A stretch of DNA of 64,000 nt, from positions 682,001-746,000 of the forward strand of contig NZ_BLRH01000034.1 of the NCBI RefSeq assembly GCF_025996515.1. Direction: 5' to 3'. The stretch comes from Rhizohabitans arisaemae. Lineage in GTDB: Bacteria; Actinomycetota; Actinomycetes; Streptosporangiales; Streptosporangiaceae. The notes below the pieces were generated by a model. It was not told the origin of the DNA. It did no database searches and worked only from the letters and a program-made list of their open reading frames with translations. This document shows, piece by piece, positions 7,327 through 58,755 of the stretch. The first letter of the stretch is position 1, and each line of letters opens with the position of its first letter. Position numbers and translations under genes: made by a program.

Positions 7327-7407
7327 GCTCGGGCCGCCTTCAGGCCGTACCGGAACGGGGTGGAAAACACCCGCCGGATCGGGTACGGACACGTCCGGGC
7401 GTCCCGG

Positions 7408-8577
7408 TCAGGCGATGGACCGGAGGATCTCCTCGACGTCCTGCCGGGTCACCGGCTTGGGGTTGTTGCGCAGCATCGGGTCCCCCATCGCGGCACGGGC
7501 CACGTCCACCGGATCGAAGGGGCCGGCGTCGGTGTCCCGCAGCGACATCGGGAGTCCCAGGTGCCGGGCCATGGCACGGACCGCGTCCCCCAGCGAGCCG
7601 GACCGGTCGACCCGCACCGGAGTCCCCTCGGGGATCGCGCGCATGAGTTCCCGCTGCCGCTCCCGGGAGTGGCTCTCGTTGAAGTCGAGGACGTGGGGCA
7701 GCACGAGGGAGGCCGTGTATCCGTGCGGGATGCCGGTGCTCGGCCCCAGATGATGGCCGATCGCGTGCGACAGGCCGCCGATGACGTTCAGTGCGCCGTA
7801 CGCTGCCATCCACGCCGCCTCCTGGCACCGCAGCCGCGACAGCGACGTCGGGGTGTCCTCGCAGGCCGGAGGCAGGTTCTCCCACAGAAGACGCCACGCG
7901 CCCAGGCACAGGGCGTCGGTGAAGGAGGAACGGCCGGTGGAGAGGTACCACTCCACGCAGTGGTCGAGGGTTTTCATGCCGCCCGCCGCCCACAGCCACG
8001 TGGGGGTCCGCGCCGCGAGAACGGGATCCAGAACGGCCTCCACCGGGGCGAGCCGCTCATCCCAGAACATGGCCTTGGTCCGCGTACGCGGATCCGTCAC
8101 GGTGAACGAGTACGTGAACTCGGAGCTGCCGAGCGTGGTCGGCACCGCCACGTGCGGGAGCGGCGCCCGCTCCAGTGGAGCGGGCCGGGCACCGCCGTCG
8201 ATGCGGTGGGCCGCGAACGCGTCCCAGTCGGTGAGCCCGTTCGGGACGCCCATGGCGACGGCTTTGGCGGTGTCGACGACGCTGCCGCCGCCGATGCTCA
8301 CCACCCCGTCGGCCTCGATCGACGCACCGGTGCGAACCGCCTCGATCGCCGAGGCGGCCGGCACGTGCGGCCGGACCCCGGAGAACAGCCGCACCCCCTC
8401 GGGGACACCGCCCTCCGCGAGCAGGGCCTGAACGGACGGGCTGGTCACGAGCAGGACCCGGTGCAGGCCGAGCCGCTTCAGGTGTCCCGCCAGGTCGTCC
8501 AGGGTCCGCTCGCCGTAGTGCACCACGGCCAGCGGCGGCAGCGTGAACGATCGGGCGTCCGGGCCTCCGTATGCCAC
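7408..8577 (-). CDS. Iron-containing alcohol dehydrogenase / maleylacetate reductase-like
   Basis: A 389-residue group III (Fe-dependent) dehydrogenase. The N-terminal half holds the dinucleotide site with SIGGGSVVDTAKA, and the C-terminal half the metal ligands in LDHCVEW, LSHAIGHHLG and PHGYTASLVLPHVL. The family reduces maleylacetate or oxidises/reduces small alcohols with NAD(P). I chose GTG at 8577 because AGGAGA stands 6 nt before it; a longer ATG form starts at 8619. It is the last gene of a leftward set with MmgE/PrpD (63-bp gap) and the XRE-cupin regulator. A clear paralog sits at 12818-14026 in the divergent arm, so the cluster carries two related reductases, perhaps for two aldehyde or keto intermediates. 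Confidence 0.85.
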   Translation of the reverse strand: MAYGGPDARSFTLPPLAVVHYGERTLDDLAGHLKRLGLHRVLLVTSPSVQALLAEGGVPEGVRLFSGVRPHVPAASAIEAVRTGASIEADGVVSIGGGSVVDTAKAVAMGVPNGLTDWDAFAAHRIDGGARPAPLERAPLPHVAVPTTLGSSEFTYSFTVTDPRTRTKAMFWDERLAPVEAVLDPVLAARTPTWLWAAGGMKTLDHCVEWYLSTGRSSFTDALCLGAWRLLWENLPPACEDTPTSLSRLRCQEAAWMAAYGALNVIGGLSHAIGHHLGPSTGIPHGYTASLVLPHVLDFNESHSRERQRELMRAIPEGTPVRVDRSGSLGDAVRAMARHLGLPMSLRDTDAGPFDPVDVARAAMGDPMLRNNPKPVTRQDVEEILRSIA

Positions 8578-38198: not shown

Positions 38199-39173
38199 TC
38201 ACCCGGTTTCGTGGCGGTGTTCCGGACGGCCGAAGTGGCAGGCGACGGCATGGAGACGTCCTTCGGCGCCGTGGGAGGGGTCGGTGGTCGCGCAGACGTC
38301 GCGGTCGGCCCGCACCAGAGGTCCGACCGGGCAGCGCGGGTGATAGCCGCAGCCGGGCGGCGGGCGGTGCGGATCGGCGGGCTCGGTGTCCGCGACCTCC
38401 GTCGTACCGCCGGACGTAAGCCGGCTGTGCCGGGTCGGCGCGGCGTCGAGGAGGTCGCGGGTGTAGGGGTGCTGCGGATCGGCGAGGACCTGCTCGACCG
38501 GGCCGACCTCGACGATCCGTCCCAGATACATGACGGCGACGATGTCGCTGACATAGCGAACCACGGCCAGGTTGTGCGAGATGAACAGCATGGACAGGTT
38601 CAGCCGCCGCTGCAGATCGCGGACGAGGTTGAGCACGGCACCCTGCACGGACACGTCGAGCGCCGAGGTGATCTCGTCGGCGATCACCACCTGCGGCCGT
38701 CCGGCCAGCGCCCGGGCGAGGGCGACCCGCTGACGCTGCCCGCCCGACAGCCGCCCGGGCAGCACATCGGCACAGTCGGGGCCCAGATTGACCAGTTCCA
38801 GCAGCCGGACGACCTCGGCGCGTCTGGCGGCCGCTCCGGCGCGGCCGTCGAGGTGCATGACTTCGGCGATCGAGCCGCCGATGCTCATCCGCGGATTCAG
38901 CGAGGAGTACGGATCCTGGAACACCATCTGCAGGGGGCGCGGGCGCCGGGGCAGCCGCCGGACGTCGGTGCCGTTCAGCAGCACCCGTCCCGCGCTGACC
39001 GGCGACAGGCCGACCGCCGCACGGGCCAGCGTGGATTTGCCGGAGCCGGACTCGCCGACCAGGCCGACCGTCTTCCCGGCCGGCACGGTCAGGCTGACCC
39101 GGTCGACCGCGGTGAGCCCTTTGCGCCGGTTGCCGTACCGCACGCTCACCCCGTCGAAGACCAACTCGCTCAT
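38199..39173 (-). CDS. ABC transporter ATP-binding protein, OppF/DppF type
   Basis: A 324-residue ATPase: Walker A GESGSGKSTLAR (near 39-50), Q-loop MVFQDPYSSLNP, signature LSGGQRQRVA, Walker B VVIADEIT, H-loop FISHN. Note the IADEITS form (I in place of the usual P in DEPT). The oligopeptide C-terminal motif is CGYHPRCPVGPLVRADRDVC. ATG at 39173 overlaps the stop of the fused permease-ATPase gene (ATGA) after GGAGGTGG; a longer ORF to 39347 is a frame shadow. It is the last gene of a leftward peptide-importer operon. Confidence 0.9.
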   Translation of the reverse strand: MSELVFDGVSVRYGNRRKGLTAVDRVSLTVPAGKTVGLVGESGSGKSTLARAAVGLSPVSAGRVLLNGTDVRRLPRRPRPLQMVFQDPYSSLNPRMSIGGSIAEVMHLDGRAGAAARRAEVVRLLELVNLGPDCADVLPGRLSGGQRQRVALARALAGRPQVVIADEITSALDVSVQGAVLNLVRDLQRRLNLSMLFISHNLAVVRYVSDIVAVMYLGRIVEVGPVEQVLADPQHPYTRDLLDAAPTRHSRLTSGGTTEVADTEPADPHRPPPGCGYHPRCPVGPLVRADRDVCATTDPSHGAEGRLHAVACHFGRPEHRHETG

Positions 39174-41119
39174 GCTCCACCTCCAGCGGGATTGACGGTG
39201 GCCGCCCGGTCGTGTTCCGCCGACACCAGGGCGGTCACCCGGGGCGGCTCCGCGTCGGCCGGGTGCCAGCAGGCGACCCGGTGTGCGTTCGCGATACGGC
39301 CCAGCACCGGATCCTCTTCCCGGCAGCGGTCGTCGGCGACCGGGCAACGCGGGGCGAACGCGCAGCCGACCGGCATCCGATCCGGCTCGGGCGGGCGGCC
39401 GGGGATGACGGCCAGCTCCCGATCCCGGTCGGTCTCCATATCCGGCACCGCCGCGAGCAGGGCACGCGTGTAGGGATGGCGCGGCGCGGTGAACAGGTCC
39501 CCGGTGGGCAGGTCCTCCACGATCCGCCCCGCGTACATGACCAGGATCCGGTCACACGTCTGGGCGACGACCGTGATGTCATGGCTGATCAGCAGGATCG
39601 CGGCGCGCTTCGCGGCCCGCACCTCCGCCAGGAGCCGTAGCACCTGCCGCTGCACGGTGACGTCCAGCGCCGTGGTGGGCTCGTCGGCGATCACCAGCCG
39701 CGGATCGCCCATCAGCCCCATGCCGATCATCGCGCGCTGCCGCATACCCCCGGAGAACTCATGCGGATACTGCCGGGCCCGCCGCTCCGCGCCCGGCACC
39801 CGTACCGCACGCAGCCGGTCCACCGCACGGGCGAACGCGGCACGCCGCGGCAGTCCCTGGTGATGGCGGGATACCTCGGCCAACTGCCGTCCGACGCGCA
39901 TGGTCGGGTTGAACGAGGTCATCGGGTCCTGAAACACCATCGCCATCGACGTTCCCAGCAAGGTGCGCAGCTCCCGCTCCGAGGTGGTCAGCAGTGGGGT
40001 CCCGGCGAACTCCAATCGGTCCGCGCTCACCACGCCGGGGGTCTCGATCAACCGGGACAGGGCCAGCGCGGTCAGACTCTTCCCCGATCCGGATTCACCG
40101 ACCACGCCCACCGACTCGCCGGGATGCACGGTGAAGCCCACCCCGCGTACCGGTGTCGTCCACCCCGACCGGCCGGGGAACGCGACCCGCAGGTTCTCCA
40201 CCGCCAGGATCGGCTCGCCGGGCCCGCTGTCCACGGCTGCGGCGTCACGGGTGACCGGTGCCGGGCGCGGACCGGTCTTCCTTGACGGGGTGCGTACCCC
40301 GACGACCGCGGCCACGGTCTCACCGAACAGGTTGAACGCCAGCCCGGCGATCACCACCGCGATGCCGGGGGCGAGTGCCGCGCCCGGGTTGATGTAGATG
40401 CGGTCGAGGCCCTCGCTGAGCAGCCGGCCCCAGTCGTAGTCCGGTGCCTGAACACCGATACCGAGAAACGAGAGGCCGGCGAAGGCCAGCAGCGCGTTGC
40501 CGGCGCCGATGGTCCCGCTCACCACCAGCGGCTCACCGATGTTGGGCAGGATGTGCCGCGTCAGCAGCCGCACCCTCCCCACCCCGGCCACCCGCGCCGC
40601 GGACACGAAGTCCCGGCCCGCCACCGACGCGGCCAGCGTCTGCGTCAAACGGGCGAACGACGGAGCCCCGGCGAGCGCGATGGCCAGCACCGCGCCGGAC
40701 GTCCCCACTCCGAAGATCACCGCGAAGAACAGCGCCAGCAGCAATCCCGGGATGGCCACGGCGATGTTCACCGCCGCGGTCACCGTCCGTCCCAGCCGGC
40801 GCGGGAGGACCGTCGGGGCCGTGCCGAGGATCGTGCCGATCACCAGCCCGATCGCCGTGGAGAGCAGCGCCAGCTCAAGAGACAACCGGGTCGCGACCAG
40901 CACCCGGTGGAAGATGTCCCGGCCCAGCTGGTCCGTGCCGAGCAGGTGCTCGGCCGAAGGCCCCTGCTGAATGGCGCCTGTGTCGAACTCGGACGCCGCC
41001 TCGCCCCACAGGATCGGTCCGAAGACCGCCAATGCGAACATGAGGGCCAGCAGTACCGCGGAAGAGGCCCCGACCGGGGTGCGGAACACCGCCAGCCATT
41101 TCACCCGACGTCTGGACAT
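39170..41119 (-). CDS. Fused ABC permease-ATPase (DppC-DppD fusion)
   Basis: A 649-residue protein. Residues about 1-275 are a DppC permease: N-terminal span, LLGTDQLGRDIFHRVLVATR, the EAA-loop SAARVAGVGRVRLLTRHILP, and about six spans. A linker of about 35 residues (RTPSRKTGPRP...) leads to a full DppD ATPase at about 310-600: Walker A GESGSGKSLTAL, Q-loop MVFQDPMTSFNP, signature FSGGMRQRAM, Walker B LVIADEPTT, then the Cys-rich tail CAFAPRCPVADDRC. The reading frame is continuous, so this is a real fusion, not an overlap. It should give fixed 1:1 coupling of one permease half to one ATPase. Upstream DppB ends one base away. Confidence 0.9.
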   Translation of the reverse strand: MSRRRVKWLAVFRTPVGASSAVLLALMFALAVFGPILWGEAASEFDTGAIQQGPSAEHLLGTDQLGRDIFHRVLVATRLSLELALLSTAIGLVIGTILGTAPTVLPRRLGRTVTAAVNIAVAIPGLLLALFFAVIFGVGTSGAVLAIALAGAPSFARLTQTLAASVAGRDFVSAARVAGVGRVRLLTRHILPNIGEPLVVSGTIGAGNALLAFAGLSFLGIGVQAPDYDWGRLLSEGLDRIYINPGAALAPGIAVVIAGLAFNLFGETVAAVVGVRTPSRKTGPRPAPVTRDAAAVDSGPGEPILAVENLRVAFPGRSGWTTPVRGVGFTVHPGESVGVVGESGSGKSLTALALSRLIETPGVVSADRLEFAGTPLLTTSERELRTLLGTSMAMVFQDPMTSFNPTMRVGRQLAEVSRHHQGLPRRAAFARAVDRLRAVRVPGAERRARQYPHEFSGGMRQRAMIGMGLMGDPRLVIADEPTTALDVTVQRQVLRLLAEVRAAKRAAILLISHDITVVAQTCDRILVMYAGRIVEDLPTGDLFTAPRHPYTRALLAAVPDMETDRDRELAVIPGRPPEPDRMPVGCAFAPRCPVADDRCREEDPVLGRIANAHRVACWHPADAEPPRVTALVSAEHDRAATVNPAGGGA

Positions 41120-42121
41120 TCAGCTCTCCCGGATAGTCGAACGCGGATCGAGCAATGCCAGCAGCACGTCGATCGTCAGGTTCACGAGAAGTACCGCGAT
41201 GCCGTACACCAGCACGATGCCCTGCACCATCGGGTAGTCCTTCTGCAGGATCGACTGCACGATCGTCGACCCCAGCCCCGGCCAGGCGAACACGTTCTCC
41301 ACCAGAACGGTCCCCGCGATCAGGCCCGTCAGCATCATTCCGCCCAGCGTCAACGTCGTCGTCAGCGCGTTCGGCAGCGCGTGCCGCGCGTACACCAGCC
41401 ATGGCGGCAGCCGCCTGGCCCGCGCCGTACGGATGTAGTCGTCGCCGAGGACCGACAACATCTCCACCCGCACGATCCGCGCGAGCACCGCGGCCGGGCC
41501 GACCGCCAGTGCCAGCACCGGCAGTACATAGGACGAGGCGTCGACGCGCCGGGCGACCGGGAACCAGCCGAGTTTCACCGCGAACACGTACACCAGCCCG
41601 ACCGCGAACAGGAACTCCGGGATCGCCGCCAGCAGCACGCTCGTCGACGTGAACGCCAGCTCGCCGCTCCGCCGGCGTCCGCCCCGGGTGAGCGCCGCCA
41701 TCAGGACACCCACCGGGATCGCCACCACGACGATCGGGACGAACGCCAGCAGCGCAAGCTTAAGCGTCTCCGGCAGCCGGTCCCCGATCACCTGGGTCAC
41801 CGGGGCGTCGTTCACGATCGAGCTTCCGAGGTCGCCGGTGAACAGCCCTTTCAGGTGGTTCCCGTACTGCTCCCAGAGCGGGTCGTTCAGCCCCAGCGCC
41901 TCCCGGCGCTCGTTCACCAGCTCCACCGGGGCCGTCATGCCCAGTGCTCCCCGCACCGGATCGCCCGGAACCAGGTGGATCATCAGGAACGACGCGGTGA
42001 CGAGCAGCCCCAGCGACACGACGAACCGCCAGGATCTGCGCAGGGCGAACGACACCCATGGGGCGCCCCGAAGCCGGTTCAGCAACCCCGGGGGCACCGG
42101 CCTGTCCACACCATCGATCAC
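41120..42121 (-). CDS. ABC transporter permease, DppB/OppB type
   Basis: A 333-residue permease with about six spans. IHLVPGDPVRGALGM and LGLNDPLWEQYGNHL are DppB landmarks; the EAA loop is YIRTARARRLPPWLVYARHALPN (near 228-250) and the C-terminal motif is WPGLGSTIVQSILQKDYP. GTG at 42121 lies 8 nt after GGAGGGA; an in-frame start at 42163 is possible. It follows the binding-protein gene by about 240 bp, longer than elsewhere in the operon. Confidence 0.88.
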   Translation of the reverse strand: MIDGVDRPVPPGLLNRLRGAPWVSFALRRSWRFVVSLGLLVTASFLMIHLVPGDPVRGALGMTAPVELVNERREALGLNDPLWEQYGNHLKGLFTGDLGSSIVNDAPVTQVIGDRLPETLKLALLAFVPIVVVAIPVGVLMAALTRGGRRRSGELAFTSTSVLLAAIPEFLFAVGLVYVFAVKLGWFPVARRVDASSYVLPVLALAVGPAAVLARIVRVEMLSVLGDDYIRTARARRLPPWLVYARHALPNALTTTLTLGGMMLTGLIAGTVLVENVFAWPGLGSTIVQSILQKDYPMVQGIVLVYGIAVLLVNLTIDVLLALLDPRSTIRES

Positions 42122-42358
42122 CGGGGAGTCCCTCCGTCGAGCCGTATGTGAACCTCCGGGCACCGCGCCCCCGGTGACCCCGAGGTTCTCGGCACGGTGG
42201 TCACGCCGGGTCGCAGGCGGGCAGGCATGCGACGTCGCCGATCATTTGTGCCGGGCGCCCGGAACCCTGGCACGATGCTCGGCCCCGGCCGGCACAGTGT
42301 GAGCCGGGCGCACACCGCGCCGACCGTGGAACTGAACGTGAAGGGTTCACCCATCGCG

Positions 42359-43945
42359 TCAGGAGGACCGCAGGCGGATGCTGGTCGGAATGGGCATCTG
42401 CAGCCATCCGTCGGTCTGGGCCTCGGCCCCGCTCAGGAAGAACGGCACCTCCAGGTCGGCGAACGGCACCAGATCCACGTTGCCGAACAGTGCCTGCTCG
42501 GCCTCGTTCCACAGCGCGCAGCCCGCGTCACCGGAGGTGCGGACTGCCTCGGTGGACAGCCGCTGGTAGTCGGCGTTGTCGACGCCGGTGAAGTTCTGCC
42601 CCTTCGGAGGCACCTGTCCGCTGACGAACGGGACCACCTGGTAGGGCATGGTGAACCGCAAACCGACCAGGAAGGCGTCGAAGTCACCGGTCTCGAACAT
42701 GGCGCGGCTGAGGGCCTTGGAATCGTCGGCGGTGAGCTTGACCTCCACGCCCACCGCTTTCCACTGCTTGGCGACGAGTTCCGCCGTGGCCGGACCCCCC
42801 TCACCGCCGGCAGAGTAGTGCAGGTCCATCCGGAGCGGCTTGCCGTTCTTGCCGCGTACGCCGTCCGCCCCGACGGTCCAGCCGGCTTCGTCGAGCAACG
42901 AGGCCGCCTTGGCCGGGTCATGCGCGGGAAGCCGGCCGGTGAGCGTGTCCGCGCCGCACGGCTTCGGGTCGCTTCCCACGATCGCGGTCGGCCTTTTCCC
43001 CTTACCCGAGGTGGAGACCCTCGCCAGCTCGTCGAGATTCAAAGCCGCCGTGAGTGCCTTTCTTACCGGTGCTTCGGAGCCGGGGCGCTTGTCGCGCTGG
43101 TTGAACCACAGTTCGCCGCTCCTGCTGGTGATGGCCATGTACTTCAGGTTCTGCGCGGTCATCCGATCCTGGTCCGCGCCGCTGATCCTGGCCAGGTTGA
43201 CGTCGCCGGAAAGCAGCAGGTTGGCCGCGGTCGTCTCATTGGCGACCACCTGGATCACCACCTTGGACGGAGTGCCCGGCGCATCGGTACTCGCCCCGTT
43301 CGGACCCCAGGTGTATCCCTTGCGTACGGTGAACGTGTAGTGGTCACCGGGTACCACCTCACTCAGCGTGAAGGGCCCGGTGCCCGATGAGGCGTTCTTG
43401 AGCATCGCGGGATCGGCCATCCCCTTGGCGCACACGATCGGCACCCTGCCGATGGTCTCCAGTACGAATCCGAACGGTTTCTCCATGGTCACCGTCACCG
43501 TGCGCGCGGAGTCGTCCGCTTTTACGGTGAACGGAATGGTCGGCACCAGCAATCCGTAGAGCGTCGAACCGTTCTTCGGATCCTTGACGAATTCGAGCGC
43601 GGCGGCGACCTGGCTCGCGGTCAGCGAGGTACCGTCGGAGCAGGTGATCCCGGCCTTGAGGGTGAACGTCGTGCTGTCCGCCTCGGTCTGCCACGTCTCG
43701 GCGAGCCCGGAGACGACCTTGCGGTCCGGAGTCACATTGACCAGGCCGTCGTAGGCCAAGGCCGACACCTCGAGGCTGATCACGTTTCGGTACGGGTCCA
43801 CGACACCGGGGTCGCCGGGCTGGGCCATGGTGAACGTGCCGCCGGTTGTGGTGGCGTTGTCGTTCGCCTCGCCGCCGCCACCGCAGGCCGTGACCAGCCC
43901 GGTGGTTGCGGTTATGGCGATGAGCGCGCGGAAAAGTCTGCGCAT
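42359..43945 (-). CDS. ABC transporter substrate-binding lipoprotein (SBP_bac_5 family)
   Basis: A 528-residue lipoprotein. Signal peptide with lipobox LVTAC (Cys about 20). Body landmarks are DPYRNVISLEVSALAYDGLV, VVSGLAETWQTEADST, LTASQVAAALEFV and PVRKALTAALNLDELA. It binds peptides or similar solutes outside the membrane. ATG at 43945 has GGAG 6 nt before it; the longer ORF to 44065 is not supported. It is the first gene of the leftward importer operon and its promoter region at 44076-44144 is a twin of that before the first gamma-glutamyltransferase. Confidence 0.9.
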   Translation of the reverse strand: MRRLFRALIAITATTGLVTACGGGGEANDNATTTGGTFTMAQPGDPGVVDPYRNVISLEVSALAYDGLVNVTPDRKVVSGLAETWQTEADSTTFTLKAGITCSDGTSLTASQVAAALEFVKDPKNGSTLYGLLVPTIPFTVKADDSARTVTVTMEKPFGFVLETIGRVPIVCAKGMADPAMLKNASSGTGPFTLSEVVPGDHYTFTVRKGYTWGPNGASTDAPGTPSKVVIQVVANETTAANLLLSGDVNLARISGADQDRMTAQNLKYMAITSRSGELWFNQRDKRPGSEAPVRKALTAALNLDELARVSTSGKGKRPTAIVGSDPKPCGADTLTGRLPAHDPAKAASLLDEAGWTVGADGVRGKNGKPLRMDLHYSAGGEGGPATAELVAKQWKAVGVEVKLTADDSKALSRAMFETGDFDAFLVGLRFTMPYQVVPFVSGQVPPKGQNFTGVDNADYQRLSTEAVRTSGDAGCALWNEAEQALFGNVDLVPFADLEVPFFLSGAEAQTDGWLQMPIPTSIRLRSS

Positions 43946-44075
43946 GATGCTCCAATCGAAGCTTGCCCGGCTGGGAGTGGCCGAGCGACGGAGACACCGT
44001 GTGCGGGTGGCCGGCCCCCGAGGCTGAAGACCCACGTCCCACACATAACACCCACATCGGTGCATTCACTACAAA

Positions 44076-44144
44076 CAGCCTGCTACAGGGTTCTGTTGGA
44101 CTCCAACGACATACGTCGCAAACATCCCTGTGATCACACAGCAC
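44076..44144 (-). promoter_or_regulatory. Promoter module of importer operon (copy A)
   Basis: Four blocks are shared with 50379-50447 at identical spacing: CAGCCTGCTA, CCAACGACA, CGTCGCAA and CACAGCAC (plus-strand order). On the minus strand this gives a -10 like TGTAGC, a 17-bp spacer, a -35 region GTCGTT overlapped by an inverted repeat CGAC-GTAT-GTCG, and an upstream GTGCTGTG. The transcript would start about 130 nt before the binding-protein ATG. The rest of the 366-bp gap to 44311 shows no gene. Confidence 0.65.
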
Positions 44145-44311
44145 CTTGTTGAACGATTGCGCCGCCACCGGGAACCGGCCCGGTGACGGCGCCGTCCCGC
44201 GCCGGATCATCCGGCCTCACCCCCGCCGGACCGGTGCCGCGTGGCCCGCACCGCCGAGACCGTCGACGCGGCGGAGCGGAGCCGGACCCGGGCCGGCGAC
44301 GGCCTCGGCGG

Positions 44312-46606
44312 TCAGCCCAACGCCGCGAGGACGTTCGGGTTGAGGGGGACGTCGGCGATCCGATAGCCCGCAGGCGGCTCGACGCCCAGCAGATGCCGGA
44401 CCAGGAAATCCCAGCGGCGCCTGATGACGTAGGCCTCGTAGCCGAAGAAGAGGTGCTCGGCGCCGGGGACGATGAGCAGGTCGAAGTCCTTGTTGGCCGC
44501 GATCAGCCGATCGACGAGTCGCAGGGTCTGGTGGGGATGCACGTTGTCGTCCATCTCCCCGTGGATCAGCAGCAGCTTGCCCTGGAGCCGATCGGCGATC
44601 TCCACGTTCGAGGAGCGGATGTAGGTCTCCTCGTCAAGCGGCCCGTCGTAGGTCTCACCCCACGCCAGGTGGTAGATCCGCTGGTCGTGGTTGCCGCACC
44701 CGGAGACGCCCACCTTGTAGAAATCGGGAAACGCGCACATCGCCCGCATGGTGGCGTACCCGCCGCCGGAATCACCGTAGACGCCGACCCGGTCGAGGTC
44801 CAGCCAGGGGCGGGTGGCGGCGAGCTGCCGGAGCGCCGCGAGATGGTCCTCCAGGAACCCCGCGGTGTCGTACCGGCCGTAGGCGTGGTCGTGGAACGCC
44901 TTGCTCCGCCCCGGCAGGCCCCGGCCGTCGACCTGGAAGACGACGAAACCGAGTGCGGCGAGCGCGTCGGCCTCGCAGTCCCGGCGCGGCTCACCGTCGA
45001 ACGAGGGCTCCAACCGACCCTTCTGCGGGCCGGGATAGGGGCTGTCCAAGACCGGGTACCGTCGCTCCGGGTCGAAGTCGTGGGGCAGGTGCAGCACACC
45101 GTGGATGTCGGTCACGCCGTCGGCCGCTTTGACGGTGAACTGTTCACGGGGCGTCCACCCGGTCGCCAGCAGGGCCGTGACGTCGGCCCGCTCCAGCTCG
45201 ACGAGTACCGCTCCGTCCCACCCGCGGACGCTCGTCACCGGGGGCGTGCCGACCGTCGACGCGGAGTCGAGGTAGTACTCCTCGTTCGCCGGTACGGTCA
45301 CGGCGTGGTCGAGGTCGTCGTCGATCAGGCGGGCGAAGCCCGTACCGTCCAGGCCGACGCGGCAGACCTGGCGGCGGTACGGATCCTCGGCCACCAGTCC
45401 GGTGGCGGTGAAGTAGACCACCCGCTCGTCCTCGTCGACGCGCAGGATCTGCTGGACCGCCCATTCCCCCGCGGTGACCTGCCCGATCAGCTCACCGGAC
45501 CGCAGGTCGTACAGGTAGAGGTGCCCCCAGCCGTCACGCTGGGAGTACCAGAGCACCTCGCGCCCGCTCGGCAGCACGCGCAGGATCGTCTGGCCCATGA
45601 CCTGCCCCGGCTCGACGCGGGGTTCACCGCTCTCCTGCATCAGCGTGCGCACCTCTCCGGTGACCGCGTCGAGGCGATCGAGCCGCAGCGTCTTCAGGTC
45701 GCGCGGCTGGTCGAGGTAGTGGACGGCTGAGCCGTCCTGCGCCCACCACACCCGCTTGAACAGGATGGGCGAGATCATGGACATCAGCAGCGGCTCGCCC
45801 TGGGACGGCACGACGTCGCCGGTCTCGACGTCGAAGACGACGAACCGGCCCTGAGGCACCACCTCGTCCCCGGGCATGGCGTAGTGGTACGCGTGCACCA
45901 CCGGCCTGCCGCCGTCCGGTGGGACGGACTCCACCAGATGGGACTGCCGCACCCCTCGCTGGTCGAGACGGTGGGTGATCACCCGGCGTGAGTCCGGCGA
46001 CCACACCACGAGCGGAGGCAGGGTCGGCGCCCCGAGCTTCCGCAGCAGCTGCCCGTAGGTCAGGCTGTCGGGCTGGGTGCCGTAGGCGTGGTCGGCGGTG
46101 CCGTCGGAGGTGAGCGGCTTCGCCTCACCGGTGTCGAGGGAGCGAATCCACAGGTCGTACCCCTGCCGGAAGACGGCCCATCTCCCGTCCGGAGACGGAA
46201 CCTCCAGCATGTTCGGCGGCTGGTGCCCCTCCACCTTCTCGCACGCGTAGGTGTCGAGCGAACACCGCCAGTGGGTGTCGAAGGCGTCGAATTCCACGGC
46301 TTCGGCGGTCACCTCGATCCCGCCGAACGGCAGCGCCTCGGCGTGGGCGGGGGAACCGGAGGCCTCTTCCAGCGCCTTCGCCAGCCGCTCGTGATCGAAG
46401 GCGGGCTCACGGGTGCCGACGGCCGGATCGACGTGGACGAACCGGTGACCCGCGGGACCCTCGACGCGATACCAGAAGCGGGAACCCTCGCCGATCCATC
46501 GAGGGGCGACCTTCCCCCCGGCCACCAGCGTGGACCGGTTGTGCACAAGGAGCCGTTCCGCACGTTGGTAGGTCGCCGCATCCATCTGCTGCGCCAATGA
46601 CACCAT
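44312..46606 (-). CDS. Prolyl oligopeptidase family (S9) peptidase, DPP IV-like
   Basis: A 764-residue serine peptidase. An N-terminal beta-propeller (about 40-480, with repeated WSPDSRRV-like blades) caps a C-terminal alpha/beta hydrolase domain. The catalytic triad is visible: Ser613 in YGDSGGGY, Asp686/687 in GEMDDNVHP, His718 in PGAEHLF. There is no signal peptide, so it acts inside the cell on imported peptides, probably removing X-Pro or similar dipeptides. AGGAGG is so close to the ATG at 46606 that GTG at 46603 may be the true start. It lies between the importer and dipeptidase genes. Confidence 0.88.
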   Translation of the reverse strand: MVSLAQQMDAATYQRAERLLVHNRSTLVAGGKVAPRWIGEGSRFWYRVEGPAGHRFVHVDPAVGTREPAFDHERLAKALEEASGSPAHAEALPFGGIEVTAEAVEFDAFDTHWRCSLDTYACEKVEGHQPPNMLEVPSPDGRWAVFRQGYDLWIRSLDTGEAKPLTSDGTADHAYGTQPDSLTYGQLLRKLGAPTLPPLVVWSPDSRRVITHRLDQRGVRQSHLVESVPPDGGRPVVHAYHYAMPGDEVVPQGRFVVFDVETGDVVPSQGEPLLMSMISPILFKRVWWAQDGSAVHYLDQPRDLKTLRLDRLDAVTGEVRTLMQESGEPRVEPGQVMGQTILRVLPSGREVLWYSQRDGWGHLYLYDLRSGELIGQVTAGEWAVQQILRVDEDERVVYFTATGLVAEDPYRRQVCRVGLDGTGFARLIDDDLDHAVTVPANEEYYLDSASTVGTPPVTSVRGWDGAVLVELERADVTALLATGWTPREQFTVKAADGVTDIHGVLHLPHDFDPERRYPVLDSPYPGPQKGRLEPSFDGEPRRDCEADALAALGFVVFQVDGRGLPGRSKAFHDHAYGRYDTAGFLEDHLAALRQLAATRPWLDLDRVGVYGDSGGGYATMRAMCAFPDFYKVGVSGCGNHDQRIYHLAWGETYDGPLDEETYIRSSNVEIADRLQGKLLLIHGEMDDNVHPHQTLRLVDRLIAANKDFDLLIVPGAEHLFFGYEAYVIRRRWDFLVRHLLGVEPPAGYRIADVPLNPNVLAALG

Positions 46607-46720
46607 TCCTCCTATTTACATGATTCTGTGAAGAAAGTCCGATGCTGCTCCCCCGAACCGACCGCGCAACAGGTGTGTCGCCCACCGCCGTCGGCCCCAT
46701 CACTCCGGCCACCGGAGCTT

Positions 46721-47869
46721 TCAGCCGTTGACCTGCTCGAAGACACGGAGAAAGTTCTCGCCGAGAACGCCGTGGATCTGCTTGTCGCTGTAGTTGCGGG
46801 CGACGAGACCCCGGGTGACGTTGATCATGTCCCGGTAGTCGCGAAACCCGTCGAGGTTAAGGCTCACGTCGATGTTGTGCTCGGGGCGGAAGCCGAAATC
46901 GCCCTGCTTGTTGCCGAAGGACCGCTGCATGATGTGCGTGGGCAGCGCCAGCGGCCAGTCGGTGCCGACCGCCACATGCTCCCAGCCGACCAGGTCGGCG
47001 ATGTAGTCGACGTGATCGAAGAACAGCTCGATCGTGGGGTTGACCGTATCGGGGGTGGCCAGGAAGAAGGGGACGACGTACACCCCGATGACACCGCCGG
47101 TGCCGGCGATCGCCCGGAGCTCGTCGTCGCTCTTGGCCCGGTCATGGTGGAAAACCGCGTCGGCGGAGGTATGGGTGGCGATGACCGGTTGCGACGAGGT
47201 GGCGCAGACGTCCAGGGTGGTCTGCCGGCCGGTGTGCGCGGTGTCCACGATGACGCCCACGTCGTTGCACCGGCGGACGAACTGCAGGCCGAAGTGGCTC
47301 AGGCCCGGGTCGTAGCGCTCGGTACAGCCCGCTCCCACGAAGTTCATGATGTTGTAGGCGCAGTCGAGGGTGTTCAGCACCCCGAGATCATGCGCGATGT
47401 CGATCAGATCGAGATCGCCGGGCCGCAGCTGGTTGCTCTGGACCAGGCCCCAGACCGCCGTCTCGCCGACCTCATGCGCGGCGCGGATGTCCCCGGCCGT
47501 ACGGGCGCGGCGCATCCAGGGGAACGCGTCCAGCAACCGGGCGAACCGGTGAGCGGCGGTAAGGATCGAATCCTTGTCCTGGAGGATGTAGCCCCCGGTG
47601 ATCCCGGTCGTCACGCCCGAAGCCTCGAACAGCTCCCGGTACTGGGGGAACTCCCCCGCGATGGCCTTCTCCCGCAGGAAGAACGCCACCGTGAAGAGGT
47701 CGTCCGAGCCGAGCGCCTCCAACTCCGCGACCAGCTCGTCGGTCCAGACATCCGGTGAACACGGCCCCTGAAACAGCAGGTCGATGACGATGCTGTCCTT
47801 GTGCAGGCGCGCCGCCCGGGCCTCCTGCCCCTCGGTCAGCCCGAAGTCGAACGTCCCGTAGCTATGCAT
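46721..47869 (-). CDS. Membrane dipeptidase family (M19) protein
   Basis: A 382-residue M19 peptidase (renal dipeptidase family), a TIM-barrel di-zinc enzyme that cleaves dipeptides, including those with D-residues. Seen: IVDTAHTGRQTTLDV, PVIATHTSADAV (zinc His), HVAVGTDWPLALPTH (Asp motif), and the C-terminal VLGENFLRVFEQV. The usual first-metal motif (DxHxD) near residues 28-32 reads VIDLLFQGPC, so two normal zinc ligands seem missing: an unusual active site. ATG at 47869 follows GAAAGG. A second M19 gene lies at 53705. Confidence 0.82.
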   Translation of the reverse strand: MHSYGTFDFGLTEGQEARAARLHKDSIVIDLLFQGPCSPDVWTDELVAELEALGSDDLFTVAFFLREKAIAGEFPQYRELFEASGVTTGITGGYILQDKDSILTAAHRFARLLDAFPWMRRARTAGDIRAAHEVGETAVWGLVQSNQLRPGDLDLIDIAHDLGVLNTLDCAYNIMNFVGAGCTERYDPGLSHFGLQFVRRCNDVGVIVDTAHTGRQTTLDVCATSSQPVIATHTSADAVFHHDRAKSDDELRAIAGTGGVIGVYVVPFFLATPDTVNPTIELFFDHVDYIADLVGWEHVAVGTDWPLALPTHIMQRSFGNKQGDFGFRPEHNIDVSLNLDGFRDYRDMINVTRGLVARNYSDKQIHGVLGENFLRVFEQVNG

Positions 47870-48009
47870 GACATGCCTTTCGACAGTGCCGGATTCCCGT
47901 TGTTCCGCGATGGTAGGCAGCGGCGTCGCCGCCGTTCTCCGACACGATGTGGAGATTGAGCCGCCCGATCGCTGCATCCGATGAACGGGCCGTCCGGCGG
48001 CATCCGGCC

Positions 48010-48702
48010 TCAGACCCCACGACGATCGCTGCCCCAGGAGAGCACGTGCTCCGGCACGGCCGTGTCCGCCGGGAGGGCCGGATCGGGTATGGGGGTTCCG
48101 GGCACGATTCGCAGGGGCACCTCGCCTGCCCACACCGGCCAGTCGTAGTCGGACGCGTGGTCGGTGGGCGGCCCGGTGCGCACCTTGGCGGAGTACTCGC
48201 TCAGCTCGACGGCGATGACGCGTACGCCTCGGAGCTCCTTCTCGGTCATCGGGCGCAGCCGGTCGAGGCGGCCCGGGACGACCCGGTCGATGAGCTCCAG
48301 CATGACCTCCCGCTTGAGCACCGGGTCGAGCACCTCACTCCCGCTGCCGAACGCGACCACCGAGCGGTAGTTCACCGAGTTCTGGGCCACGGCGCGGCTG
48401 AGCGTCAGCGAGTCGAGGATGGTCGCCTCCACGCAGACGGGGACGCCTTCGCTCACCCGTTTGATCATCCGGTTGGCGGGCGAGCCGTGGATGTAGAGCA
48501 CGTCGTCCCGGCGCACGTGCAGCGTGGGCAGCACCACGGGCCCGCCGTCGTCCACGAAGGCGACATGGCACATGAACGCCTCGTCGAGAATCGCATGGAC
48601 CAGTTCGGGGTCGTACGATCCACGCATCGCGCGTCGCCGGACCTTGACCCGGTCGCTCGCCGGTCCCGGCTTTCCATCGTTGATCGCGTCAGCGGACACC
48701 AC
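48010..48702 (-). CDS. Pyridoxamine 5'-phosphate oxidase-like flavin protein
   Basis: A 230-residue split-barrel protein of the nitroimidazole-resistance/PPOX type. It has AFMCHVAFVDDGGPVVLPTLHVRRDDVLYIHGSPANRM near residues 42-80, then ATILDSLTLSRAVAQNSVNYRSVVAFG, the usual FMN-binding arrangement. Function in this cluster is unclear; related proteins are flavin or pyridoxal-phosphate binding. GAGGGAGAC precedes the GTG start. It lies 40 bp downstream of the first gamma-glutamyltransferase gene and is probably co-transcribed with it. Confidence 0.82.
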   Translation of the reverse strand: MVSADAINDGKPGPASDRVKVRRRAMRGSYDPELVHAILDEAFMCHVAFVDDGGPVVLPTLHVRRDDVLYIHGSPANRMIKRVSEGVPVCVEATILDSLTLSRAVAQNSVNYRSVVAFGSGSEVLDPVLKREVMLELIDRVVPGRLDRLRPMTEKELRGVRVIAVELSEYSAKVRTGPPTDHASDYDWPVWAGEVPLRIVPGTPIPDPALPADTAVPEHVLSWGSDRRGV

Positions 48703-48742
48703 GATGTCTCCCTCTCGTTCGTTCTTCGGGTACGCGTTGATG

Positions 48743-50302
48743 TCAGTAGCCGGCGGCCCGGCCGAGGCGGCGGGGGTCGGCGACCCCGTGCAGGGTCCCG
48801 TCGGGACGGATGTGCACGGCCTGGCAGCTGCCCAGCTCCGGCTCCCACGGCGACACCCGGGTGATTCCGATGCCGCGGCGCTCCACCTCGGCGAGCACGT
48901 GCTCGCCCATGGTCGACTCCACCATCGGCCGCCGGCTGGGATAGCCGGAGGCCCCGAACATCGGCTGCCACACCGACTCGGCCGGATCCATGCCCCGCTC
49001 CAGGACGTTCACCGAGTTCTGCAGCACGTTCTGCAGCGCCGAGATGCTGGGCGAGGCCGCCGCGAACACCGGACGGCCGTCCCGTACCGCCAGCATCGAC
49101 GTGGCCCATCCGACGGGCACAGGGATCACCGGGTCGGCGCAGAGGAACATCGGGCGTGGCACGATCACGCCGTCGACCATCAGCCCGACCCCGAAGGGTG
49201 TGGACGTCGCCGAGTGAGCGCCATGGGCGATCATGCCGGACTCGTCGACCGCCACAATCGCGTTGGTACCCAGGTTCATCGGGTCGAACGGCCTCGGCGG
49301 CCCCGACTCGACCTGCCGCCACATCTTCTCCGCGACCTCGGGCGTGACCGCCTCGACCATCTCCTCCCTGTGCGGCAGCCGGAAGGCGCCGTTGTTGAAG
49401 GTGAGGCCGTGGTGCCAGGCTTCCTCGACGATGCGCATCAGCAAGTACAGGCTCTCGGGATCCTCATCGGGCCGACCCCGCCGCCCCAGACCGCCGATTC
49501 CGGCCATGCTCAGCATCAACGCGTACAACGACCCGGTGGTGTGCAGCTCGTAACCCCCGGCCACCGGCAGCACCGGCAGCGCGGTGTCGTGGGCCGACCC
49601 CGCGGCCATGTCGTCCAGGGTGATCCGGCCCCCGGCCGCCCGGGCTGTCTCCACATAGCGGCGGGCGAACTCCCCCTCATAGAAATAGGACGGACCCTGC
49701 TCGGCCAGCTGCTCGATCGTGCGGGCCAGCGCAGGCTGGCGCAGCACCTCCCCCACCCTGAACATGTGCCCGTCCGGGAACCACACCTGCCGACCGGCCG
49801 CATACCGGCCCGCCACCGTCCGGCACTCAAAGGCCCAGCCCCACAGCAGCTGATCGACCGTGAAACCCTCCCGGGCCGCCGTCAGCGCATCGGTGAACAG
49901 CTCCGCCCAGCCCAGCCGCCCCCACTTCGACCAGGCCGTGTGCGCCGCCAGCACCCAGCCCGGGGTGACGACGGTACGGCCCGACCAGCGGCCCGCCTCG
50001 TCCAGATCGCCGTCCTCGGCGGCCGGCACGTGTCCCAGGTGGTGGATGAACCGGCTCTCACCGGTGGCCGGGTCGTACACCGTCATCGACATCGTGCCGG
50101 CCAGGGTCGTCATGGTGGGCTCGACCACGGTCTGCACCGCGGCCGCCGCCAGATAGGCGTCCACCGCACTGCCACCCGCACGCAACGCGGCCACCCCCGC
50201 CGCCGACGCCGCCGGATGCGACGTCGAGATCATCGCACCACGGCCCACCGCCGACACCTGCGCCGGATCCGGCCGCGACGGCCGCGCCGGGACCTCACTC
50301 AT
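48743..50302 (-). CDS. Gamma-glutamyltransferase-family Ntn hydrolase, copy 1
   Basis: A 519-residue GGT-type autoprocessing hydrolase. The N-terminal AMISTSHPAASAAGVAALRAGGSAVDAYLAAAAVQTVVEP is the family opening. The processing site and nucleophile appear to be Thr346 in LGTNAIVAVDESG, which aligns with TTHxSVxDxxG of classical enzymes although the His is Asn. There is no signal peptide, so it is cytoplasmic, unlike most GGTs. Relatives act on gamma-glutamyl peptides or as cephalosporin acylases. GAGGAG lies 5 nt before the ATG. It is a tandem paralog of 50590-52152 with diverged patches. Confidence 0.85.
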   Translation of the reverse strand: MSEVPARPSRPDPAQVSAVGRGAMISTSHPAASAAGVAALRAGGSAVDAYLAAAAVQTVVEPTMTTLAGTMSMTVYDPATGESRFIHHLGHVPAAEDGDLDEAGRWSGRTVVTPGWVLAAHTAWSKWGRLGWAELFTDALTAAREGFTVDQLLWGWAFECRTVAGRYAAGRQVWFPDGHMFRVGEVLRQPALARTIEQLAEQGPSYFYEGEFARRYVETARAAGGRITLDDMAAGSAHDTALPVLPVAGGYELHTTGSLYALMLSMAGIGGLGRRGRPDEDPESLYLLMRIVEEAWHHGLTFNNGAFRLPHREEMVEAVTPEVAEKMWRQVESGPPRPFDPMNLGTNAIVAVDESGMIAHGAHSATSTPFGVGLMVDGVIVPRPMFLCADPVIPVPVGWATSMLAVRDGRPVFAAASPSISALQNVLQNSVNVLERGMDPAESVWQPMFGASGYPSRRPMVESTMGEHVLAEVERRGIGITRVSPWEPELGSCQAVHIRPDGTLHGVADPRRLGRAAGY

Positions 50303-50378
50303 CCGATCTCCTCACCCTCGCCCAAAGACGAGACTGCATACGCCCAGAAACGGGCGAACGCGACTCAGTGGCACAATT

Positions 50379-50447
50379 CAGCCTGCTATATGGGATGGCG
50401 CGAGACCAACGACAACCGTCGCAATCCCCACCTGCGCGGCACAGCAC
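50379..50447 (-). promoter_or_regulatory. Promoter module of GGT copy 1 (copy B)
   Basis: It has the same four blocks and spacing as 44076-44144. On the minus strand: upstream GTGCTGTG, inverted repeat CGAC-GGTT-GTCG over the -35 region, 17-bp spacer, and -10 TATAGC. The transcript would begin about 75 nt before the GGT ATG at 50302. Confidence 0.65.
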
Positions 50448-50494
50448 TTTGTCGGATCGACCGCCGTCACAGGTACGCGACCGGGGTCATACGA

Positions 50495-50556
50495 GAGCGG
50501 GCGCCGAGCGCACGACGTCAGCACCGTTGATGACGTCGTGCGCTCGGCGCCCGCTC
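50495..50556. terminator. Perfect 26-bp hairpin between the GGT genes
   Basis: Bases 50495-50520 are the exact reverse complement of 50531-50556, with a 10-nt loop. It lies 34 bp downstream of the GGT copy 2 stop, so it probably ends that transcript before the copy 1 promoter. No U-tract follows in either direction. Confidence 0.7.
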
Positions 50557-50589
50557 GGCAAAAGGACCGGGGGTTACCCGTGTGCCGGG

Positions 50590-52152
50590 TCAGTAGCCGG
50601 CGGCCCGGCCGAGGCGGCGGGGGTCGGCGACCCCGTGCAGGGTCCCGTCGGGACGGATGTGCACCGCCTGGAAGCTGCCCATTTCCGGTTCCCACGGCGA
50701 CACCCGGGTGATTCCCAAACCGCGGCGTTCCACCTCGGTGATGGCCTGCTCGCCCATGGTCGACTCCACCATCGGCCGCCGGCTGGGATAGCGCGCAGCC
50801 CCGAACATCGGCTGCCGGACCGACTCCGCCGGATCCATGCCCCGCTCCAGGATGTTCACCGAGTTCTGCAGCACGTTCTGCAAGGCGGAGACACTGGGCG
50901 AGCCGGCGGCCAGCACCGGACGGCCGTCCCGTACCGCCAGCAGCGAGGTCCCCCAGCCCATCGGTATGGGCGCCCACCGCTCGGTGAACAGCGTGATGGG
51001 GCGGGTCACGACAACGCCGTCCACCATCAGGCCGACCCCGAACGGCGTGGACGTCGCCGAGTGCGTCCCGTACGCGATCATGCCGGACCCGTCGACCACC
51101 ACGATCGCGTTGGTGCCCATGTTCATCGCGTCGAACGGCCTCGGCGGCCCCGACTCGACCTGCCGCCACAACCTCTCCGCGACCTCGGGCGAGACCGCGT
51201 CGGCCATCGCGTCAAGGGGGGATTTCCCGCTGAAGGGATCTCCGGAGATCGACAATCCGTAATGCCAGGCTTCCTCGACGATACGCATCAGCAGATACAG
51301 GCTCTCGGGATCCTCATCGGGCCGGCCCCGCCGCCCCAGACCGCCGATTCCGGCCATGCTCAGCATCAACGCGTACAACGACCCGGTGGTGTGCAGCTCG
51401 TAACCCCCGGCCACCGGCAATACCGGCAACGCCACGTCGGCCGCCGCCCCCGCGGCCATGTCGTCCAAGGTGATCCGGCCCCCGGCCGCCCGCGCGGTCT
51501 CCACATAACGACGGGCGAACTCCCCCTCATAGAAATAGGACGGACCCTGCTCGGCCAGCTTCCCGATGGTCTCGGCCAGCTCCGGCTGCCGCAACACCTC
51601 CCCCACGCCGAACATGTGCCCGTCCGGGAACCACACCCGGCGACCGGCCGCATACCGGCCCGCCACCGTCCGGCACTCAAAGGCCCAGCCCCACAGCAGC
51701 TGATCGACCGTGAAACCCTCCCGGGCCGCCGTCAGCGCACCGGAGAACAGCTCCGCCCAGCCCAGCCGCCCCCACTTCGACCACGCCGCATGCGCCCCCA
51801 GCACCCAGCCCGGGGTGACCACGGTACGGCCCGACCAGCGGCCCGCCTCGTCCAGATCGCCGTCCTCGGCGGCGGGAAGCCCGCCGGCAGCGGCCACCAT
51901 GCGGCCGGCACCCGTGGCCGGGTCGTACACCGCGACCATCAGGCCGCCACCCAGGGTGGTCATGGTGGGTTCGACCACGGTCTGCACCGCGGCCGCCGCC
52001 AGATAGGCGTCCACCGCACTGCCACCCGCACGCAACGCGGCCACCCCCGCCGCCGACGCCGCCGGATGCGACGTTGAGATCATCGCACCACGGCCCACCG
52101 CCGACATCTGCGCCGGATCCGGCCGCGACGGCCGCGCCGGGACCTCACTCAT
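50590..52152 (-). CDS. Gamma-glutamyltransferase-family Ntn hydrolase, copy 2
   Basis: A 520-residue paralog of copy 1, with the same family opening and the presumed nucleophile Thr347 in MGTNAIVVVDGSG. It differs from copy 1 mainly in three patches: about residues 67-92 (LGGGLMVAVYDPATGAG against LAGTMSMTVYDPATGES), about 300-322 and about 378-400. These may line the substrate pocket. ATG at 52152 overlaps the stop of a short upstream ORF and has no ribosome site of its own; a GTG at 52158 is an alternative. No signal peptide. It follows the serine hydrolase gene by 87 bp. Confidence 0.85.
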   Translation of the reverse strand: MSEVPARPSRPDPAQMSAVGRGAMISTSHPAASAAGVAALRAGGSAVDAYLAAAAVQTVVEPTMTTLGGGLMVAVYDPATGAGRMVAAAGGLPAAEDGDLDEAGRWSGRTVVTPGWVLGAHAAWSKWGRLGWAELFSGALTAAREGFTVDQLLWGWAFECRTVAGRYAAGRRVWFPDGHMFGVGEVLRQPELAETIGKLAEQGPSYFYEGEFARRYVETARAAGGRITLDDMAAGAAADVALPVLPVAGGYELHTTGSLYALMLSMAGIGGLGRRGRPDEDPESLYLLMRIVEEAWHYGLSISGDPFSGKSPLDAMADAVSPEVAERLWRQVESGPPRPFDAMNMGTNAIVVVDGSGMIAYGTHSATSTPFGVGLMVDGVVVTRPITLFTERWAPIPMGWGTSLLAVRDGRPVLAAGSPSVSALQNVLQNSVNILERGMDPAESVRQPMFGAARYPSRRPMVESTMGEQAITEVERRGLGITRVSPWEPEMGSFQAVHIRPDGTLHGVADPRRLGRAAGY

Positions 52153-52172
52153 CCGCACTCATCCGTTCTCAT
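52149..52172 (-). CDS. Seven-residue upstream ORF (MRTDECG) of GGT copy 2
   Basis: A 10-bp unit beginning GGATGAG is present three times in a row here but once before copy 1. The added units move the AGGAG ribosome site away from the GGT start and give it a new ATG (52172) at proper distance. That frame reads seven codons and its TGA overlaps the GGT ATG. Translation of copy 2 is probably coupled to it. Confidence 0.5.
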   Translation of the reverse strand: MRTDECG

Positions 52173-57262: not shown

Positions 57263-57375
57263 ACGCTTGCTTCCGGGCGTCCGCAAAAACCCCGGGGTCC
57301 GGCCGCGGAATCGGTGCTCCCGGTGGCTCGTCACATACCCAAGGAGGCAACCCATTCTGTAGTGAATGGCGACTC

Positions 57376-57417
57376 TATAGCCATAAACAGGGTGATTGCG
57401 TACTTTATGGCGCTATA
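57376..57417. promoter_or_regulatory. Inverted repeat in AT-rich promoter region before PucR gene
   Basis: TATAGCCATAAA (57376-57387), 16-bp spacer, TTTATGGCGCTATA (57404-57417): arms pair perfectly apart from two extra bases in the right arm. The region 57350-57440 is markedly AT-rich for this genome. It is a probable operator or promoter element about 110 bp before the PucR-type gene. Confidence 0.55.
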
Positions 57418-57525: not shown

Positions 57526-58755
57526 GTGACAGCTACAGAGCTGAAACGTCTCGTCGACGGCTTGGGCCAGCGCCTGCGACGCAATGTCACGGTCGACGAC
57601 CCACGCCTGCGGCAACTGGCCTTCTCCTCACATGAGTACGGCGCGATCGATCGGCTCAGGGAGCAATCGATCTTCAAACGCGAGGTACCCCGGGAGGTCG
57701 CAGACTGGATCCGTTCCGCCGGGGGGAAGACCGCGACGGGGCCCTTTCGCCCGCCCGTCAACCCCGAGATCGGCGCGACGACCCAGCGGCTCGGCCTCCC
57801 GATCCGGCAGCGGGGTGTGCTGCTTGGCTTCGTGTGGATTCTCGAGGGTGACGACCCGCTCACCGAAGCCGAGATTCAGACCGTCCTCGACACGATCGAC
57901 ACGATCGCCGTCGTGATCCAGCGCGACCAGCTCGCCCACCAGCTGCATCGCAGCCGTGCTAGGGAGCTCCTCCGCGACCTGGTGGCCCACGACGATCAAG
58001 CCACCCGGGAGCAGGCCGCGGCCGACCTGGTGGACGCCGATCTGTTCGCCGCCGGTGAGCCGGTCGTCGCCTTGGTCGTCACCCTTCATCCAGACGATCG
58101 GGCACTGCTGGACGGCGAACGCGACACCCTCGCCGACTGCCTCGAGCGCGTGAGCGGCCGGCTGTCGGACCGGCGCCACGCCAGCCTGGTCCGCCGCAAC
58201 CACGGCCTGCTCCTTCTCTCCACCAGAGATCCCCTGGTCAGTGGGGACGCCAAGCTGGGTCTGGCCGAGGAGTTGCTCGACGCTCTCGCGCGCGGATTCC
58301 CCGGCGCGCGGCCCATGGCCGGATTCGGTGACGTGGCGGAGACCCTTACCGGCTTCCACCGGTCCTACGGCCAGGCCGAACGCGCCGCGCGGGTCGCGCG
58401 GACGGTGGAGGGCCTTGGGCCTGTGGCCCGGTTCGACCGCCTCGGCGTGTACGGGCTTCTCGCCCGTATCCCGCGGGAGGAGCTCACCCTCGACGCGCTT
58501 CCCCCGGGGCTGCTCCGCCTGCTGGACGTCGGCGCCAAAGGCGAGCAGCTGGCCTCCACCTTGGAGGCGTATCTCGACCATGCCGGTGACGTCCAGGCCA
58601 CGGCGGAGAAGCTCTTCGTCCACCGGACGACGCTCTACTACCGGCTCCAGCGGATCGAGGGGATAACCGGGGCGCAGCTGACGAACGGTGAAGACCGTCT
58701 GACCTTCCACATAGGACTGAAGATCGCGCGCTTGGTGGGGCTTCGACACGACTAG
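57526..58755 (+). CDS. PucR/CdaR-type transcriptional regulator
   Basis: A 409-residue regulator. An N-terminal GAF-like or unknown sensor region (about 1-140) and a central GGDEF-like helical region lead to the C-terminal PucR HTH (about 345-400: AYLDHAGDVQATAEKLFVH, RTTLYYRLQRIEGITG). The family activates catabolic operons for purines, amino acids, D-glucarate and polyols. It is placed between the peptide/proline-racemase cluster and the glycerate kinase gene, either of which could be its target. GTG start with GGGAGG 6 nt before it. The gene converges with glycerate kinase. Confidence 0.87.
   Translation: MTATELKRLVDGLGQRLRRNVTVDDPRLRQLAFSSHEYGAIDRLREQSIFKREVPREVADWIRSAGGKTATGPFRPPVNPEIGATTQRLGLPIRQRGVLLGFVWILEGDDPLTEAEIQTVLDTIDTIAVVIQRDQLAHQLHRSRARELLRDLVAHDDQATREQAAADLVDADLFAAGEPVVALVVTLHPDDRALLDGERDTLADCLERVSGRLSDRRHASLVRRNHGLLLLSTRDPLVSGDAKLGLAEELLDALARGFPGARPMAGFGDVAETLTGFHRSYGQAERAARVARTVEGLGPVARFDRLGVYGLLARIPREELTLDALPPGLLRLLDVGAKGEQLASTLEAYLDHAGDVQATAEKLFVHRTTLYYRLQRIEGITGAQLTNGEDRLTFHIGLKIARLVGLRHD

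Follow-up and report, generated by a model that had tools for sequence, protein, structure and literature searches.

Two 69-bp modules that carry the same four blocks at the same spacing precede a peptide-importer operon and a GGT-like gene in the window, the stretch of 64,000 nucleotides analyzed here (G000:C33:682001-746000, part of an 8.33-Mb actinobacterial draft genome). The module is real and conserved at orthologous promoters, and the genome that contains the window has two sites. The best reading of the sequence is a local regulon of two operons, with an operator that would overlap the -35 region of weak promoters. It is probable that the two modules are paired promoter/operator units of this one regulon and that the product of the PucR-type gene at 57526 activates them; binding, activation, the inducer and the start sites are inferred.

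Module A lies at 44076..44144, 5' of the peptide-importer operon, and module B at 50379..50447, 5' of the second GGT gene, both on the minus strand and both where the first-pass annotation of this DNA had located them. As the genes are on the minus strand, the module is read as the reverse complement of the forward-strand letters. It then has the form GTGCTGTG-N15-TTGCGACG-N2-TGTCGTTGG-N17-TAGCAGGCTG in A and B alike, with blocks of 10, 9, 8 and 8 bases (35 in total) and identical spacing over 69 bp. The four equally spaced blocks separated by differing bases, as originally described, are borne out by the counts: 35/35 block positions match between the modules, compared with 9/34 of the other positions, which corresponds to chance. 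The ungapped identity is 44/69, and the flanks agree at chance level. The proximal edge of module A is 130 nt 5' of the start of the substrate-binding protein (SBP) gene (43945), and that of module B is 76 nt 5' of the start of GGT2 (50302).

Each module contains a 19-bp putative operator core, TTGCGACGTATGTCGTTGG in A (44103..44121) and TTGCGACGGTTGTCGTTGG in B (50406..50424), both on the minus strand. In A, the core is a CGAC-N4-GTCG inverted repeat that overlaps the -35 position; core B was assigned from the sequence and the conserved columns. On the same strand, 15 nt 3' of the core, a -10-like hexamer is found, TGTAGC in A (44082..44087), with conserved T..TA columns, and TATAGC in B (50385..50390), recognized from the sequence. 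Alignment of orthologs delineated an upstream conserved element in A (CAACAAG and GTGCTGTG; 44137..44153, minus strand). A promoter scan of 43900-50700 detected no TTGACA/TATAAT-like sigma-70 pair at either module, in keeping with a requirement for an activator.

An identity of 44/69 is by itself unremarkable in a window this rich in GC, where many pairs reach at least 42, mostly coding paralogs or repeats. When four runs of at least 8 within 75 bp are demanded, the modules are the sole direct pair in the window, the tandem GGT duplication being set aside; one inverted pair also passes. Four first-order Markov simulations produced this pattern in neither orientation (0 direct, 0 inverted). A search for the core plus TAGCAGGCTG with up to three mismatches retrieved modules A and B alone in the window (0.00 matches expected), and the core plus TAGCAGG, with the same tolerance, retrieved the same two alone in the whole 8.33-Mb genome. 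The core by itself is not specific, since a looser version with up to two mismatches occurs at 14 places in the genome versus 9 control hits. The proposal of a local regulon is thus upheld by a genome scan that gives two copies only and by recurrence at orthologous promoters. A dispersed repeat, named at the outset as the case that would speak against it, fails for this genome, with two copies only and flanks at chance.

Operon A starts with the gene of an SBP_bac_5 substrate-binding lipoprotein (42359..43945, minus strand; Pfam PF00496), together with genes that encode, according to domain matches, a permease, a permease-ATPase fusion and an ATPase of a peptide/nickel-type ABC importer (38199..42163, minus strand). 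The importer resembles those of the Dpp/Opp type in having SBP_bac_5, two permease domains and two ATPase domains with oligo_HPY, and differs from them in the fusion of one permease to an ATPase. Among the NCBIfam equivalogs listed for the importer, none reaches its cut-off. A paralogous importer cluster of the same genome, on contig C13 (L053 ~6700-8500), is devoid of the module; just 5' of its SBP gene, an apparent PucR-type HTH was noticed by eye.

Operon B is presumed to start with GGT-like gene 2 (48743..50302; PF01019; TIGR00066 140 bits). Genes for a PNPOx-like protein (48010-48702), an M19 dipeptidase (46721-48022) and an S9/DPP4-type peptidase (44312-46606), assigned by domain matches, presumably form the rest of the operon, judging from the small gaps; all four genes are on the minus strand. 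Both GGT-like proteins reach PF01019 and miss the TIGR00066 cut-off of 357.85 (140 and 147 bits). The comparison connects these divergent enzymes with a peptide importer. GGT-like gene 1 (50590..52158, minus strand) was recognized by sequence comparison as a tandem paralog without a module upstream. The duplication spans 48742-52163, with long stretches at about 92% DNA identity, and the module is present 5' of the downstream copy only.

Since SBP homologs in the family-wide searches have at most 48% identity, the GGT-like protein was used instead as the query for footprinting. A scan of genome contigs for the GGT-like family gave five loci (L037-L041), of which the two from Bosea (L040 and L041, 25–28% identity) were left out of the footprinting, L040 being compared by tblastn only. 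The same gene cluster was found in Nonomuraea guangzhouensis (L037) and N. typhae (L038), comprising tandem GGT-like, PNPOx and M19 enzymes, a proline-racemase-like gene, a PucR-type gene and the importer. In both species the PucR-type gene lies directly 5' of the SBP gene and its module, on the same strand. Each locus was scored against only the blocks common to modules A and B (maximum 35), using 100 simulated shuffles per locus as a control. The top matches were 29/35 before GGT2 (L037:7910) and 26/35 before the SBP gene (L037:16819) in N. guangzhouensis, 25/35 directly before the SBP gene in N. typhae (L038:13596), these three with unchanged block spacing, and 25/35 before the PNPOx gene in a further Nonomuraea genome, G326 (L048:15407). 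These real scores of 25–29 compare with shuffle maxima of 23–24. No clear module precedes the GGT genes of N. typhae, and none was found at L039, the locus of a distant GGT homolog.

In an alignment of seven sites from five genomes the core is conserved; conservation peaks at GTCGTT and at a T.TA..A region a fixed distance away. The sites of the window, N. guangzhouensis, N. typhae and G326 all have the same distance between the core and the TAG/TAC in the -10 region. The 19-bp core is an inverted repeat with both arms in 6/7 sites; the 5' arm CGAC is changed in one, the GGT2 site of N. guangzhouensis, where it is degraded (TTACTAC). About 30 bp 5' of the core, an element CRACAA-N2-TGCTG is also conserved. 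Footprinting in four other genomes thereby supports CGAC-N4-GTCG over the -35 position as the shared putative operator, as the first-pass annotation had suggested. The block layout that it gave holds in the window and requires amendment beyond it, as the upstream conserved element is longer and, outside the core, the orthologs keep the blocks less strictly.

A sequence-only profile, R1, was built from six aligned sites. Across nine genomes it returned six sites at 50–62 bits, followed by a next best match of 17 bits; in the genome of the window, modules A and B score 56.9 and 61.7 bits, compared with 15 bits for the third-best match. Within the family, 5/341 genomes have a match of at least 30 bits (G000, G324, G334, G326 and G349). 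The first four contributed training sites to R1, and G349 did not. The site in G349 (30.5 bits, E=2.2e-6) is immediately before the start of a PNPOx gene, and the PucR-type gene is next; scored with the window blocks alone it reaches 23/35, tied with another place and attained by 2/100 shuffles. Among 394 genomes drawn from the class, E 0.001 was passed by G000 and a single 23.6-bit match (G482) only.

The proposed regulator of operons A and B is encoded at 57526..58755 on the plus strand, its distance to the modules in the window being 13 kb (A) and 7 kb (B), and was selected by its domains and its co-occurrence with the module. The protein contains a GGDEF-like domain (GGDEF_2, PF17853; 46.4 bits) and a C-terminal HTH_30 (PF13556; 78.5 bits, residues 342–400). 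PF07905, the N-terminal domain of strict PucR, was not matched at E 0.001, and the protein is therefore called PucR-type and not strict PucR. AdeR is its best NCBIfam model; the protein is ruled out as AdeR itself, since its 76.9 bits fall below the cut-off of 700.

Close orthologs of this protein (57–70% identity, E 1e-130 or better) occur in exactly the five R1-positive genomes of the 341, and the next tier of homologs has 41–45% identity. When 21 genes of the window were compared with the four other clusters, PNPOx, M19b, ProRac and PucR alone were present in all, and the PucR-type protein is the sole one of these four to bind DNA, judging from the domains. The initial mention of this protein as one candidate is reinforced by the exact co-occurrence and by its position as the only regulator common to the five clusters. 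The co-occurrence is partly circular, as four training genomes were found by following the cluster. With training sites taken from the other four genomes, independent evidence comes from G349 and from the 336 genomes that lack both the module and a close ortholog. Another protein of the cluster would show this same co-occurrence if the cluster had been inherited as a whole.

The HTH stretch HRTTLYYRLQRIE is common to the four orthologs whose HTH is aligned, and five more distant homologs mostly have HRASLYYRLRR or a variant. At the loci of the homologs with 41–45% identity (L051, L052, L126, L127), no block match exceeded the shuffles where scored, and the regions upstream of the PucR-type genes at such loci (L051, L052, L124-L127) contained no module where scored. 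A weak half-match, TTGCGAGTGTTGTCGCTGG, is present at L051, divergent from its PucR gene. The promoter of the PucR-type gene in the window is itself without the module. A long inverted repeat unlike the module, CTATAGCCATAAA...TTTATGGCGCTATA, lies 5' of this gene (57373-57417) and is perhaps the gene's own operator. In G326, the reading frame of the PucR-type gene is interrupted, its two parts lying in different frames (L047:15703-16904); either the draft contains an error here or the gene is broken.

Most of the PucR-type regulators described in PMC7652997 are activators, several act on inverted repeats of 17–24 bp, and few have a known operator. GabR of Corynebacterium glutamicum is a PucR-type activator of gabTDP that binds between -87 and -23, and AdeR and PutR of Bacillus subtilis activate amino-acid catabolism from inverted repeats of 24 bp and 17 bp, respectively (as cited in PMC7652997). 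The size of the core fits such operators, inverted repeats of about 17–24 bp near the promoter, by the sizes given there. The likeness to GabR is one of layout, namely an actinobacterial PucR-type protein, inverted repeats in the promoter and a local regulon for a nitrogenous nutrient. GabR differs in that it is without a GGDEF-like domain, whereas the 57526 protein has GGDEF_2, and in that it is encoded divergently beside a single target. With AdeR and PutR, the similarity is in the size and type of the inverted-repeat operator, and the target genes differ. No publication matching this circuit was found, judging by titles and abstract starts. The circuit appears to be small and ordinary in kind, though newly described, and the comparison yields for it a concrete 19-bp candidate operator, a candidate regulator and a list of two target operons in the setting of a rare peptide-use cluster of actinobacteria.

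In the proposed mechanism, the PucR-type protein would bind the inverted repeat TTGCGAC-N3-TGTCGTTRG, also written TTGCGAC-N4-GTCGTTGG. The 3' arm of this repeat would extend over the -35 position, in a promoter whose -10, TGTAGC or TATAGC, is weak. A probable further contact of the protein is the second element, CRACAA-N2-TGCTG, some 30 bp further upstream, and the protein would recruit the polymerase from the overlapping site. A peptide or amino-acid signal, as the target genes suggest, would thus switch on operon A for the peptide-type ABC importer, and the same signal would switch on operon B for the GGT-like, PNPOx, M19 dipeptidase and S9 peptidase proteins. A more elaborate form of this mechanism is possible, and we hold it only tentatively: a multimeric PucR-type activator would occupy three half-sites of a composite promoter (CRACAA at about -70, CGAC and GTCG at about -37) with a constrained -10/+1 stretch TAGCAGGCTG, and would control strictly two operons of an undescribed peptide-scavenging pathway, the members of which would be the importer and the GGT-like, M19, S9 peptidase and proline-racemase-like proteins.

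The same protein and operator could also act in repression, blocking the polymerase over the -35 until a peptide signal releases it, and the position of the core over the -35 would suit such a role. Activation is favored because a consensus -35/-10 pair is absent, the extra upstream element is conserved, and the family precedent is mostly one of activators; repression is accordingly considered unlikely. Less probable still is that an ECF-type alternative sigma factor recognizes the module, with TGTCGTT as -35 and GTA(G/C) as -10, the PucR-type protein being a passenger of the cluster. The best-conserved columns, GTCGTT and the T.TA..A region at a fixed distance, are compatible with this reading, but the 5' arm (CGAC in 6/7 sites) and the upstream element are conserved too, the genes common to the clusters include no sigma factor, and the genome holds two sites only. 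That the module is a conserved leader RNA, a riboswitch or attenuator, and not a DNA operator is very improbable: CGAC-N4-GTCG could form a 4-bp stem, but no Rfam family is matched in 36000-64000, and in G326 and G349 the module is immediately before the start codon, leaving little transcribed leader.

Five R1 matches at 22–23 bits (L119:4016, L120:4347, L121:3201, L122:4192 and L123:4446) belong to one dispersed, transposon-like element, approximately 1 kb long, whose ATPase was judged TniB-like by eye. Present in 5/341 genomes, it carries an exact 15/15 match to the core near its end, and the core alone can therefore arise outside promoters. The functionless remnant of a mobile element or decayed duplication that this match might evoke is strongly disfavored, the least probable of all readings, as the TniB-like element matches the core and none of the other blocks and has no copy in the genome of the window by R1, as a decayed copy would not keep four perfect blocks with the rest at chance, and as the sites recur at orthologous promoters.

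Activation by the PucR-type protein is the preferred reading. A different conserved stretch, GCAGGTGTCGCAGA...TTCCGACC..CGTCC, occurs in both Nonomuraea clusters, in the spacer between the M19b and FMN-dehydrogenase genes or between the M19b and GGT genes (L037:5045-5100; L038:4670-4720 and 6330-6380), and is possibly a weaker, divergent operator pair. In the N. guangzhouensis cluster, a pyrroline-5-carboxylate-reductase-like gene (L037:12370-13206) neighbors the proline-racemase-like gene, a hint that the substrate may be proline or hydroxyproline peptides.
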